Assembly (NCBI GenBank): GCA_030426085.1
Contig: JAUHYW010000031.1
Location: 1 to 64,000, forward strand
Length of the DNA stretch: 64,000 nucleotides
Origin: a bacterium
GTDB lineage: Bacteria; Myxococcota_A; Bradymonadia; UBA7976; UBA1532
Direction of reading: 5' to 3'
Position numbers and translations under genes: made by a program. A model generated the notes under the pieces. That model saw only the letters and a list, made by a program, of their open reading frames with translations. It had not been told where the DNA came from and searched no databases. This document shows, in pieces, positions 40,178-46,588 of the stretch. How positions within the stretch are numbered: position 1 is the first letter of the stretch; each line of letters opens with the position of its first letter.

Positions 40178-42709
40178 ATGCGCGCGGCGATCCTGCTCAC
40201 ACTGTGCGTCGTCGTCGGCTGCGTCGACGACCCGGCCGTCATCGGCGACGGCGACCTCGCGCTCGCCGACGCGGCGGTCGACCTCGACCTGCCGCCGATC
40301 GTCGACGCCCGCCCCGACCTGGGGCGCCTCGGCGAGTTCGGCGAGCCCTGCGAAGAGGACGCCGAGTGCGTCTCGGGCTACTGCGTCGAGGCCCGCGACT
40401 TCGGCCGGATCTGCACCCGCACCTGCGGCGAGTGCCCCGCCGGCTTCGAGTGCGCGCCCATCGGCAACGCCGGCCCCGACCGGACCTTCGTCTGCCTCGC
40501 CGACCAGCCCGACCTGTGCAAGCCGTGCGAGACCGACCGCGAGTGCGACGACCCGGCCGACCTGTGCCTGACCATCGGCCTGCGCACCTACTGCGGCGAG
40601 GACTGCGCGGTCGACGGGGTCTGCCCCGAGGGCTACGCCTGCTTCGAGTTCGAGCGGGACGACGGGCCGGTGATGCAGTGCGCCCCGGCCGACGGCGAGG
40701 GCTGCGCGCCGTGCCGCGACGCCGACGGGGACGGCTACGGCGAGGGCGCCGACTGCCTGGGGGCCGACTGCGACGACGAGGACCCGGGCACCTACCCCGG
40801 GGCCGACGAGCGGTGCGACGGGCGGGACAACGACTGCGACGCGGCGGCCGACGAGGCGCCGTCCGATCGACCCGAAGACGGCGCCTGCGCGGCGCTGGGG
40901 CTGTGCCGGGGCACCGCGCCCGCCTGCGTCGACGGGGGCTGGGTCTGCCCCTACCCCGAGGGCTGGTCGGATGACGGCGAGCCGCTGTGCGACGGGGTGG
41001 ACGAGGACTGCGATGGCGCGGTCGACGAGGACTTCGACCGCCAGGGCGACGTGGCCCACTGCGGGCAGTGCGGCAACGCCTGCGACTACGCCCACGCGGC
41101 GGCGGCCTGCGAGGCCGGGCGGTGCGTGATGGGGGCCTGCGAGGCGGGCTGGCACGACGCCGACCGCGACCCGGGCACCGGCTGCGAGTACCTCTGCGCG
41201 CCCACCCGGGAGGGGGTCGAGGCGTGCGACACCATCGACAACGACTGCGACGGCGCGGTGGACGAGGGGCTGGACGCGCCCGAGCTGTGCAACGGGGCCG
41301 ACGACGACTGCGATGGGGCGGTCGACGAGGGCTTCGACCTGCTCGCCGATCCGGAGAACTGCGGGGCCTGCGGCCGGGTGTGCGACCTGCCCGACGCCCG
41401 GGCCCGCTGCGAGGCGGCGGCGTGCCTCATCAGCGGGTGCCTGGGCGGCTTCGTCGACCTCGACGGGCGGCCGGAGAACGGCTGCGAGTACGCCTGCCAG
41501 CCCACCCGGGAGGGGGTCGAGGTCTGCGACGGGGTCGACAACGACTGCAACGGGGTCGTCGACGACGGGGTCGACCTCGCCGCCGACGTGCAGCACTGCG
41601 GGCGCTGCGGCAACCGCTGCGACCTGCCGCCCAACCGGGACGCCGGCTGCGCCGCGGGGCAGTGCTTCGTGGGTGGGTGCGTCGCCGGCTTCGTCGACGC
41701 CAACGGCGACCCGACGGACGGCTGCGAGTACGCCTGCGCGCCGAGCGGGGTCGAGGTGTGCGACGGGGACGACGACGACTGCGACGGGCGGGTGGACGAG
41801 GGCACGCTCAACGCCTGCGGGGCGTGCGGGGCGGTGCCGGCCGAGGTGTGCGACGGCGTCGATCAGGACTGCGACGGGCGGGTGGACGAGGGCACGCTCA
41901 ACGCCTGCGGGGCGTGCGGGGCGGTGCCGGCCGAGGTGTGCAACGGGGTCGACGACGACTGCGACGGGGTGATCGACGGGGGCCGGGTCTGCGGGCCCTA
42001 CGTGCAGCAGCGCTGCCGGCTGTTCGTGGGCTGGGGCGACAGCCGGGCGGGGCCCAACGGCGCCAGCCCGGTGTGGGATCGCTGCCCGGCGGTCGACCGC
42101 GATCTGGCGGGCAACGTGCGCTGCACCGGCACCCGGCGGGACGGGCGCTTCGCCCGGATCCAGGTGGACGGCGACGTCAACGGCGATGACCAGTTCGCCC
42201 CGGCGCTCTTGTGCGACGACGGCGGCGATCCGGCGCTGGCGGCCTACATCCAGAGCCACTGCGCGCTGTTCTGGGGCCACGCCGACCGCGAGCAGGGGCC
42301 CGACGGCAGCCCGGCCTGGGGGCCGTGCCCGGGGGTGCTCAACGGCGACAACGGGCGGCTGCGCTGCACCTCGAGCGGCTACGACGGCGACTTCCGGGCC
42401 TTCGTGACGGTGGGCGACGTCAACGACGACGACGACTTCGGCTTCGCCTGGATCTGCCGCGACCCGGATGACCCGGCGCGGGCGGCGGCGCTCCAGTCGG
42501 CGGTCGCGGTGTACGTGGGCTGGGCGGACAGCGAGCGGGGCCCGCCGGACGGTTCGGCGACCTGGGGCCCGTGCCCCGGCGCGGCGAGCGGCGACCGCAA
42601 CAACCAGCGCTGCGTGAGCACCCGGGGCGACGGCCGCTTCCACCGCATGCGGCTGGGGGGCGACGTCAACGACGACGACCAGTTCGGCTTCGCCTTGCGC
42701 GCCCGCTGA
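40178..42709 (+). CDS. MopE-like Cys/Asp-rich lipoprotein with C-terminal three-repeat domain
   Basis: An 843-residue lipoprotein (lipobox VVGC, Cys15). Residues 50-185 have Cys-rich modules; from about 185 to 605 come about eight copies of the putative metal-binding motif CDG-x-D-x-DCDG-x-x-DE (for example LCDGVDEDCDGAVDE and VCDGDDDDCDGRVDEG) set in CGxCGxxC frames. This is the myxobacterial MopE-type element, thought to bind calcium. The last 240 residues are three tandem copies of an unfamiliar 70-residue domain, each with W-x-x-CP and GDVNxDDxFxFA. Export to the cell surface is likely. ATG 40178 chosen by its Shine-Dalgarno. Confidence 0.88.
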   Translation: MRAAILLTLCVVVGCVDDPAVIGDGDLALADAAVDLDLPPIVDARPDLGRLGEFGEPCEEDAECVSGYCVEARDFGRICTRTCGECPAGFECAPIGNAGPDRTFVCLADQPDLCKPCETDRECDDPADLCLTIGLRTYCGEDCAVDGVCPEGYACFEFERDDGPVMQCAPADGEGCAPCRDADGDGYGEGADCLGADCDDEDPGTYPGADERCDGRDNDCDAAADEAPSDRPEDGACAALGLCRGTAPACVDGGWVCPYPEGWSDDGEPLCDGVDEDCDGAVDEDFDRQGDVAHCGQCGNACDYAHAAAACEAGRCVMGACEAGWHDADRDPGTGCEYLCAPTREGVEACDTIDNDCDGAVDEGLDAPELCNGADDDCDGAVDEGFDLLADPENCGACGRVCDLPDARARCEAAACLISGCLGGFVDLDGRPENGCEYACQPTREGVEVCDGVDNDCNGVVDDGVDLAADVQHCGRCGNRCDLPPNRDAGCAAGQCFVGGCVAGFVDANGDPTDGCEYACAPSGVEVCDGDDDDCDGRVDEGTLNACGACGAVPAEVCDGVDQDCDGRVDEGTLNACGACGAVPAEVCNGVDDDCDGVIDGGRVCGPYVQQRCRLFVGWGDSRAGPNGASPVWDRCPAVDRDLAGNVRCTGTRRDGRFARIQVDGDVNGDDQFAPALLCDDGGDPALAAYIQSHCALFWGHADREQGPDGSPAWGPCPGVLNGDNGRLRCTSSGYDGDFRAFVTVGDVNDDDDFGFAWICRDPDDPARAAALQSAVAVYVGWADSERGPPDGSATWGPCPGAASGDRNNQRCVSTRGDGRFHRMRLGGDVNDDDQFGFALRAR
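41778..41941 (+). repeat. Two 74-bp exact direct repeats (90-bp period)
   Basis: Bases 41778-41851 and 41868-41941 are identical over 74 bp, encoding the CDGRVDEGTLNACGACGAVP unit twice. The identity at silent positions indicates recent duplication or gene conversion. Confidence 0.85.
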
Positions 42710-43909: not shown

Positions 43910-44044
43910 CACGCGGCTCCGGGGGTGGGTCCGTCCGTGTGATACACCAGCCCGACAAGCGGCCGCGAGGCGGTTGAAATCACCCGGCGGATGGCGCTCT
44001 ATTCGGCCCGCTTCGGGCCGGACACCCGAGGGAGGAGTTTCCGC

Positions 44045-46588
44045 ATGATGCTGCGGGCCTGGATGATCGCGGGGCTCGGCGTGCTGCTGAGCCTGGGCTG
44101 CACGCCGGCCGATGACGACGACGGCGCCGGGGGCGCGGGCGGCGCGCCGGTGGACGCGCAGCCGGATCAGACCCGGCCCGACATGGCGCCCGACCCCGAC
44201 ATGGCGCCCGACCCGGACATGGCGCCCGACCCGGACATGGCGCCCGACATGGCCCCGCCCGGCCCGGACATGGCGCCCGACCCGGACATGGCGCCCGACA
44301 TGGCCCCGCCCGATCCGGACATGGCGCCGCCCGACCCCGACATGATGCCCGACATGGCCCCGCCGGCCTGCGAGGACGACGACTTCGAGGACGACGACCG
44401 CCCGATCGACGCGGTGGCCCTCGACGGGCTCGATCAGCGCCCGGTGGGCCGCGGCGAGAGCGTCGAGCGCCGGCTGTGCGGGGGGGACGACGACGTCTAC
44501 GCCGTCGACGGCTGCGCCAACGGGCGGCTGGAGGCCGAGCTGCGCTTCGCCCATGCCGACGGCGACCTGACCCTGACCGTCGTCGACCTCTTCGGCGCGC
44601 CGCTGGCCACTGGCGAGAGCGCCACCGACGACGAGCTGGCGGCGGTCGATCTGGACGACAGCGCCCCGGTCTTCGTGCGGGTGAGCGGCCCGCTGGGGGT
44701 CGCGGTGGACTACGGGCTGACGCTCATCCGCACCTGCCCCGAGTGCGTGGCCGACGCCGACTGCGGGCGGGGGTCGCTGTGCGACGACCTCGTCTGCGCG
44801 CCGGGCGAGTGCCGGGTCGACGCCGACTGCCCGGGGCGGGTCTGCGCCGATCGGGCCTGCGTGCAGTGCGCCGCCGACGACGACTGCCCCGACGGGGTGT
44901 GCGCCGATCGCGTCTGCGTCGGCTGCCGGGGCGACGACGACTGCCCGGCCGGGGTCTGCGAGGGCGCGCGGTGCGTGCAGTGCCGGGGCGACGGCGACTG
45001 CCGGGCCGGGGTGTGCGTGGGCGCGGTGTGCGTGGGCTGCGGGGACGACGGGGACTGCCCGGGCGGGGTGTGCGCCGACGAGGTCTGCGTGCAGTGCCGC
45101 GACGACGGGGACTGCCCCGACGGGGTGTGCGTCGAGGAGGTCTGCGCGCAGTGCCGGGCCGACGACGACTGCCCCGACGGGGTGTGCGTCGACGCGGTCT
45201 GCGCGCAGTGCCGGGGCGACGGCGACTGCCCGGGCGGGGTGTGCGCCGACGCCCGCTGCGTGGGCTGCGCCGACGACGGGGACTGCCCCGACGGGGTGTG
45301 CGTGGCCGAGGGCTGCGTCGAGTGCCGCGACGCCGACGACTGCCCCGGCGGGGTCTGCGCCGCCGATCGCTGCGTCGAGTGCGCCGCCGACGGGGACTGC
45401 CCCGACGGGGTGTGCGTGGCCGACCGCTGCGTCGCGTGCCGGGGCGACCGGGACTGTCCGGGCGGGGTCTGCGCGGACAACGCGTGCGCGCAGTGCCGGG
45501 CCGACGCCGACTGCGCCGACGGGGTCTGCGCCGAGGGCGTCTGCGTCGGCTGCCTCGACGACGACGACTGCCCCGACGGGGTGTGCGAGGGGCAGCTCTG
45601 CGCCCAGTGCCGGGGCGACGGGGACTGCCGGGCCGGGGTGTGCGTGGACGCGGTGTGCGTGGGCTGCGGGGCTGACGACGACTGCCCCGGCGGGGTGTGC
45701 GTCGACGCCGCCTGCGCCGCGTGCCGGGACGACGCCGGCTGCCCCGACGGGGTCTGCATCGACGGGGCCTGCGCCGAGTGCCGGGGCGACGCCGACTGCC
45801 CCGGCGGGGTGTGCGCCGGTGAGCGCTGCGTGCAGTGCGCGGGCGATAACGACTGCCCCGACGGGGTGTGCGCCGGCGAGCGCTGCGTGCAGTGCGTGGG
45901 CGACGGGGACTGCCCCGACGGGCGCTGCGCGGACTCGATCTGCGTCGAGTGCGTGGGCGACGGGGACTGCCCCGACGGCTTCTGCGTGGCGTCCGCCTGC
46001 GCGCAGTGCCGGGAGGACGCCGACTGCGCCGAGGGCGAGCTGTGCGCCGGGGGGCGCTGCGTCGTCGTGGCCCCCCGGGGGCCGGGCCCGGTGGAGCTGG
46101 TGATCACCGAGCTGATGCCCGACCCGGACGCGGTGAGCGACGCCGACGGCGAGTGGTTCGAGATCTACAACGCCACCGACGAGCCGCTCGAGCTCGAGGG
46201 GGTGCGGGTGAGCGAGATCGACGGGGGCAACCCCTTCGTCATCCAGGGGTCGCTGGTCATCGGGGCCGGGGCCTACATGGTGCTGGGGCGAAACGCCGAC
46301 ATGGCGGCCAACGGCGGGGTGCCGGTGGCCTACGCCTACGGCAGCGCGATGGCCCTGCGCAACACCTTCGACGACGTGCAGCTCGTCAACGTCGAGGGGC
46401 AGGTCATCGACGTGGTGGCCTACGACGACGGGGTCGACTGGCCCGACCCGACCGGGGCGTCGATGCAGCTCGGCAGCGGCCCGGTGGGGGTGGAGAACAA
46501 CGACGGGTCGCTGTGGTGTGAGGCGGCCCAGCCCTTCGGCGCGGGCGACCTGGGCAGCCCGGGGGCGCCGAACCCGCCCTGCCCCTGA
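44045..46588 (+). CDS. Giant Cys-repeat lipoprotein with C-terminal lamin-tail domain
   Basis: An 847-residue lipoprotein (lipobox LSLGC, Cys19). Order: signal (1-19), an extended PDMAP-type linker (about 45-105), a PPC-like beta domain (about 110-235), then from about residue 256 some 22 tandem 19-residue modules with pattern C-x5-C-x4-C-x4-C-x2 such as [19 protein letters not shown], and finally a lamin-tail (LTD) domain from about 680 with [38 protein letters not shown] domains of bacteria are often on secreted nucleases or surface proteins. The repeats should make a rigid disulphide-rich rod, presenting the LTD. GGGAGGAG lies seven bases before ATG 44045. Confidence 0.92.
44178..44358 (+). 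repeat. Low-complexity PDMAP-coding repeat
   Basis: About 13 copies of the coding unit for PDMAP or DPDMAP make a Pro/Met/Asp linker in the lipoprotein. The DNA unit is roughly 12-18 bp long (CCCGACATGGCGCCCGAC type) and prone to slippage. Confidence 0.75.
44810..46066 (+). repeat. 57-bp tandem repeat array, about 22 units
   Basis: Each unit codes for one 19-residue Cys module. Units 4 (44981) and 15 (45608) are nearly identical, and units 3 and 5 match 14 and 16 better than their direct neighbours, suggesting that an older block of about eleven units (627 bp) was duplicated. This is coding sequence and not a CRISPR array. Confidence 0.85.

Follow-up and report, generated by a model that had tools for sequence, protein, structure and literature searches.

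The window analysed here, a stretch of 64,000 nucleotides of bacterial DNA, contains on its forward strand a frame (40178-42706, +) that is translated without internal stops and carries three related repeats at its end (Table 1). The last 240 residues of the lipoprotein-like product, 843 residues long, form this set of three repeats, hereafter the trio. The ATG start was chosen because it gives a lipoprotein-like signal peptide, and a longer open reading frame (ORF) from 40094 is also present; the relative L009 has, as judged by eye, a similar start, MKRLSMMLCALALLSC. The protein matches the MopE motif (PF11617) in eight stretches (E = 1e-36 in the Pfam scan), the first of which was placed at 40766-40855 and a later one at 41840-41890, and its overall score is 125.3 bits against a curated cut-off of 27. 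It resembles MopE proteins in these eight stretches, but the motif covers the presumed stalk and the trio itself has no match. At least 147 places match PF11617 in the genome of the organism (150 of 989 candidates scored), and for this reason the motif does not define the trio head; 14 control genomes gave no match to PF11617. A neighbouring ORF of 865 residues (43991-46588, +) carries a long run of short Cys-rich DxDCPxGVCxxxxCxxC repeats followed by a different C-terminal domain.

Table 1. Features of the gene encoding the three-repeat protein, in window positions.
Feature	Position	Strand	Basis
Gene of the 843-residue protein, stop included	40178..42709	+	Open frame
Signal peptide, lipobox-like VVGC	40178..40222	+	By eye from translation
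MopE motif region (PF11617), presumed stalk	40766..41980	+	Pfam match; region end by eye
Repeat copy 1, Cys a, b, c, d	41996..42235	+	Translation; BLASTP between copies
Copy 1 Cys: a 42014-42016, b 42083-42085, c 42122-42124, d 42212-42214; predicted pairs a-d and b-c	42014..42214	+	Translation
Copy 1 loop GDVNGDD, putative metal loop	42170..42190	+	Translation; conservation
Repeat copy 2, Cys a, b, c, d	42236..42481	+	Translation; BLASTP between copies
Copy 2 Cys: a 42260-42262, b 42326-42328, c 42365-42367, d 42455-42457; predicted pairs a-d and b-c	42260..42457	+	Translation
Copy 2 loop GDVNDDD, putative metal loop	42413..42433	+	Translation; conservation
Repeat copy 3, Cys b, c only, protein C-terminus	42482..42706	+	Translation; BLASTP between copies
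Copy 3 Cys: b 42572-42574, c 42611-42613; predicted pair b-c only	42572..42613	+	Translation
Copy 3 loop GDVNDDD, putative metal loop	42659..42679	+	Translation; conservation

The three tandem copies at the end of the protein, described in an earlier note on this sequence, are real, with pairwise BLASTP identities of 46-53% (copies 1 and 2, 46%, E = 1e-19; copies 2 and 3, 53%, E = 6e-24; copies 1 and 3, 46%, E = 2e-19). At the DNA level a core of 86 nucleotides recurs with start-to-start spacings of 243 and 246 nucleotides, which corresponds to a repeat period of 81-82 residues; the length of about 70 residues given in that note therefore describes the conserved core and not the period. The long F-x-GW...CP pattern proposed for the repeat holds as a consensus from which single copies deviate, with GH for GW in copy 2, Y for F in copy 3, and GPNGAS and DDQFAPA in copy 1, and the RC-x(4-5)-DG-F motif is present in all three copies with its spacing corrected to RC-x5-DG-x-F in each. 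A chance repeat is ruled out by the BLASTP matches between the copies and by conservation across genomes.

No match to the trio was found in Pfam, NCBIfam or PHROGs, and sequence and profile searches of PDB chains with the repeat returned nothing convincing. Individual scans of 34 trios and 29 single repeats against Pfam gave scattered weak matches, each to one member. The earlier view that the repeat belongs to no named family has thus stood up: a profile match to a named domain, fixed beforehand as the refuting observation, was searched for and not found. In the portions of the open-licence literature accessible to the search, no paper on the domain or on its cis-tripled, stalk-mounted form was found. 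The domain is unnamed in the libraries searched, and the fibre plan of its single-copy relatives, described below, is already known.

The trio profile matches 15 of the 57 genomes of the organism's own class and 21 of 377 genomes sampled from the phylum Myxococcota, where the single-repeat profile matches 22 of 377, and a broader repeat profile matches 17 of 317 genomes of another class. Eight places match in the genome of the organism (G000; 10.1 Mb in 178 contigs), and four of them cluster on contig C124. Four trio genes of the type with MopE motifs are close together there (G000:C124:17239-26810; L037), and a similar four-gene cluster is seen in the sister genome G001 (C87; L039). The only relative found in a named genome collection belongs to the metagenome assembly "bacterium isolate 2_bin.46" and is 85% identical over the trio. 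In another bacterial protein (L098:3-2228, genome G358) a trio follows nine stretches that match Stig1 (PF04885, E = 9.2e-48), a Cys-rich family named from plants. Scans of viral contigs with three queries (the trio, a fibre tip and a spacer repeat) revealed no relative, nor did a phage search with one fibre tip or a plasmid search with one spacer repeat, leaving a phage or plasmid origin unsupported.

Copy number is either one or three in the whole proteins collected, none of which has two, four or more copies. Three copies were found in 46 deduplicated proteins (28 ORFs bounded by a stop on either side, 17 truncated at the upstream end alone and one cut within the third copy) and, beyond these, in L008, where one copy is split into two matches. 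One copy occurs in 14 proteins of the same set; what looks like a fifteenth single copy (L022) comes from a trio gene truncated at the edge of its locus, and the five proteins with two copies are each truncated in the same way. The chains that carry three copies are of other kinds than those with one, and most of them are lipoprotein-like. The other class adds 14 whole three-copy proteins, and two pieces from it, one with two copies and one with a single copy, stop at contig ends. In spacer-type trios, 36-42 residues separate the copies. One spacer-type trio gene, in a genome of 16.04 Mb (G552:C1:6414500-6419500; L145), is split over two frames in its second copy, through either a real break or a sequencing error. 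As a control, MopE motifs were counted by regular expression in the 28 whole three-copy ORFs; the count is 1 to 8 in 20 of them and 0 in eight, three of which are spacer-type.

The GDVNxDD element, for which the earlier note had raised the possibility of metal binding, has a D-x-N-x-D spacing as in dockerin-type Dx[DN]xD calcium loops, and its sequence is compatible with a calcium-type loop. It differs from these and other such loops in that the trio has no Pfam match, and membership of the dockerin or EF-hand families was rejected since no Pfam match appeared in the trio at E 10. Strand-like hydrophobic residues follow the element, and the later EF-hand ligand positions are absent, as judged by eye. 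The strict form G[DN]V[DN]x[DN]D is present in 111 of the 194 aligned copies, and in an earlier set of 150 copies the four loop positions are all D, N or E in 54-67%, depending on the class. The repeat could be a metal store or stalk element similar to the MopE motifs, in which the GDVN loop would serve as ligand and adhesion would play no part, as the constant place of the D/N-rich loop in most copies and the annotation of the MopE motifs as metal-binding (by their Pfam name) would allow. We regard this as improbable, because the strict loop is missing in 83 of the 194 copies, and because the fixed copy number, the C-terminal position and the role as a variable fibre tip fit a head better.

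Six Cys positions (a, x, y, b, c and d) form three co-occurring pairs in the 194 aligned copies. Positions a and d are both occupied in 151 copies, neither in 42 and one alone in a single case, copy 1 of L014, which begins at a contig end; b and c are both present in 187 and both absent in seven, and x and y are both present in 66 and both absent in 128, with not one copy carrying a lone member of either pair. The picture was alike in the earlier set of 150 copies. Nine ORFs were left out before the count of 150 (six cut by a locus edge, L008 with its split repeat and the two very divergent tips of L050), as were L145 (frame break) and L148 (contig end) before the count of 194, and L173 and L180 are in neither. 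Since most copies are related by descent, these counts do not represent independent events. Only a and d remain in two fibre tips and in copy 2 of L018, and only b and c in certain other copies, so that the pairings a-d and b-c are fixed if the bonds form within a copy. Seen from the sequences, the domain family and its Cys pairing by co-occurrence are well supported, and we infer the disulfides themselves from this pairing.

The seven joint losses of b and c fall in four places, namely copy 2 of L018, the third copies of L048, L049 and L053, the tips of L060 and L100, and L096. Outside the count, the b-c rule is broken by three divergent tips of genome G054 (two in L050 and one in L173), in which position c is a Cys, position b is not, and one more Cys follows a at a distance of three residues; the divergent single tips of this genome (L050, L173, L179 and L180) suggest a rearranged disulfide. 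Among 60 third copies, 39 retain only the inner pair (b and c), three have no Cys and 18, of the spacer type, have all six, and the a-d pair is absent from all 42 third copies of the MopE-type lineage. The earlier statement that copy 3 of the window protein had simply lost its first Cys thus has to be replaced: its last Cys is absent too and, given the strictness of the pairs, what has gone is a whole predicted disulfide, a trait of the family that may trace back to one event.

Single copies of the domain are found at the tips of fibre-like proteins. The trio profile aligns with the single-tip profile with an hhalign probability of 96.0 (E = 5e-9) and with that of the spacer and tip repeats with a probability of 97.5 (E = 7e-12). 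In the single-copy proteins a long middle part connects an N-domain of about 100-120 residues to the tip domain, which lies at or near the C-terminus. This N-domain is shared by all 13 whole single-copy proteins (four on C34 of the organism's own genome, three in G001, two in L179 and one each in L101, L096, L100 and L181) and by a fourteenth with a weak tip match (L180), the remaining single (L102/L182) being cut by the contig start, and the N-domain profiles of two lineages align with each other with a probability of 98.7. The N-domain profile is absent from 46 of 46 and 18 of 18 ORFs of the two three-copy sets, an absence that is firm only for whole ORFs because 17 of the 46 are cut upstream. 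It was not found in L046 either, where the sister genome has its whole copy of the gene; the locus of the window itself (L001) is cut upstream. The N-domain is also present on other C-terminal ends, several of them unlike one another, in 29 listed ORFs without the tip, some of which are cut or repeated, and the cut ones could still bear a tip.

The single-copy relatives are mosaics, one N-domain being joined to differing C-terminal tips in examples such as the L094 cluster. At this cluster (G000:C34:163870-168609; L094:3871-8610), four tandem fibre-like genes have a common N-domain, a common single-copy tip and differing middle parts, and three genes of the same kind lie on C32 of the sister genome G001 (L095). 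The shafts of two single-tip fibres match the shufflon pilus-tip protein PilV (PF04917; E = 4e-8 and 1e-14); this likeness concerns the N-terminal constant region of PilV and not its tip, and the window protein has no such match. One protein with the N-domain (L158) matches collagen, though below threshold (E = 0.0021). A CPxG...G...C segment, counted by regular expression, precedes the copies in spacer-type trios and is frequent in the fibres L096 and L100.

A comparable plan is described for the mosaic adhesive trimer (MAT) fibres of Bdellovibrio, which have a conserved N-domain of about 130 residues, a shaft and exchangeable tips whose fold involves no strand swapping, form trimers in the six solved members and include one tip that binds GlcNAc and LPS (PMC10769870). 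The single-copy relatives follow the plan of the non-S74 group of these Bdellovibrio bacteriovorus fibres, with a signal peptide, N-domain, shaft and swapped tip, and their N-domain of about 100-120 residues may correspond to that of about 130 residues in Bdellovibrio. In contrast, the fibre N-domain is missing from the window protein, to judge by its sister-genome copy; the window protein has MopE motifs in the position of a shaft and bears three tips per chain on them. Whereas six MAT tips have been solved (PMC10769870), the repeat domain has no convincing sequence match among PDB chains.

Trees were built from 87 and 66 of the 150 repeats, the careful tree having only 93 columns. Copies group by type and position, with 9 changes versus a shuffled-label mean of 52.7 for 87 rows and 7 versus 41.9 for 66 rows. 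One branch (100/96) separates the 42 MopE-type rows, without exception, from the rest; in the careful tree single branches likewise set apart the MopE-type copies 2 (85/85) and copies 3 (97/87), and copies 1 require two changes. This grouping by position indicates that the MopE-type trio was mostly inherited as a block. The placement of copy k of both trio types in one clade is rejected for k = 1, 2 and 3 (AU p = 7e-6, 7e-4 and 7e-4), with groups set by copy position after the quick 87-row tree was already known; tripling has consequently taken place at least twice, under the model used and with 93 columns. Concerted evolution of the copies in a lineage could produce a pattern like that of repeated tripling. 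Inside the spacer trios AU p values of 0.16-0.33 are compatible with a third triplication as well as with its absence.

The constant number of three copies in proteins of the window type might also reflect one composite, internally threefold domain, such as a β-trefoil, of which each repeat would be a lobe, and searches returned a very weak local similarity to designed β-trefoils (best E = 0.17 over about 18 positions; E = 2.1 in another search). This explanation is very improbable and was set aside, as 13 whole proteins have the domain just once and all six Cys are present in 9 of the 12 aligned single copies; the repeat is also about twice as long as a β-trefoil lobe.

The trio may instead reproduce a small fibre-tip domain in single-chain, pseudo-threefold form and serve as an adhesive head, an explanation that, read from sequence comparisons, we judge about as likely to be right as wrong. 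The reading of three as the functional unit follows from the copy-number rule, its tie to the protein architecture and its repeated origin. In each unit of about 80 residues the a-d disulfide would join the first and last strands and b-c would close the middle, with the D/N-rich GDVNxDD loop sitting before the last strand. On the fibre proteins one copy would cap each chain of a presumed homotrimer, and one chain would supply all three units in the window protein and, by a separate origin, in the spacer-type proteins of a different class. The MopE repeats or the spacer would act as a stalk that keeps the head off the membrane, and the head would probably bind a ligand, for instance a glycan, that another surface presents. 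In these steps we infer the trimer, the surface display and the ligand binding. The copies are not equivalent, since copy 3 lacks the a-d pair and many copies lack the strict loop.

The main rival, which we consider possible and rather unlikely, is that the three copies are independent tandem modules, comparable to beads on a string, that raise avidity without contacting one another and that persisted by descent after two triplications. Indeed, two triplications are few, and three copies could persist by descent alone. The repeat can probably fold on its own, since every copy contains an a-d or b-c pair of its own and the domain is found singly on fibres, and the 36-42 residues between the copies of spacer-type trios are also consistent with separate modules. 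Contacts between copies, threefold or other, are likewise absent from the AlphaFold2 models, but these were built from window and L009 sequences (six repeats and two trios) and are too poor to be used (pLDDT 54 for one repeat and 37 for the trio, respectively). On the other hand, no whole relative has gained or lost a copy, whereas the MopE count in the same proteins varies from 0 to 8, the three-copy state arose at least twice, and the single copies sit on trimer-like fibre scaffolds, all of which argue for a pseudo-threefold head. For the corresponding history, in which the tip domain of a trimeric fibre was converted at least two times independently into a head of exactly three copies and the third copy lost its disulfide in one lineage as its place in the pseudo-trimer became special, we see an even chance.

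Defining this domain, which has no name as yet and three predicted disulfides, in a phylum rich in predators ties the proteins with MopE motifs, whose motif places are abundant in this genome, to a probable adhesive head. The rule of one copy on fibres and three off fibres points to a way in which a trimeric adhesin could be rebuilt as one chain. If this is true, a protein with a MopE or spacer stalk would do the job of a homotrimeric, MAT-like fibre.
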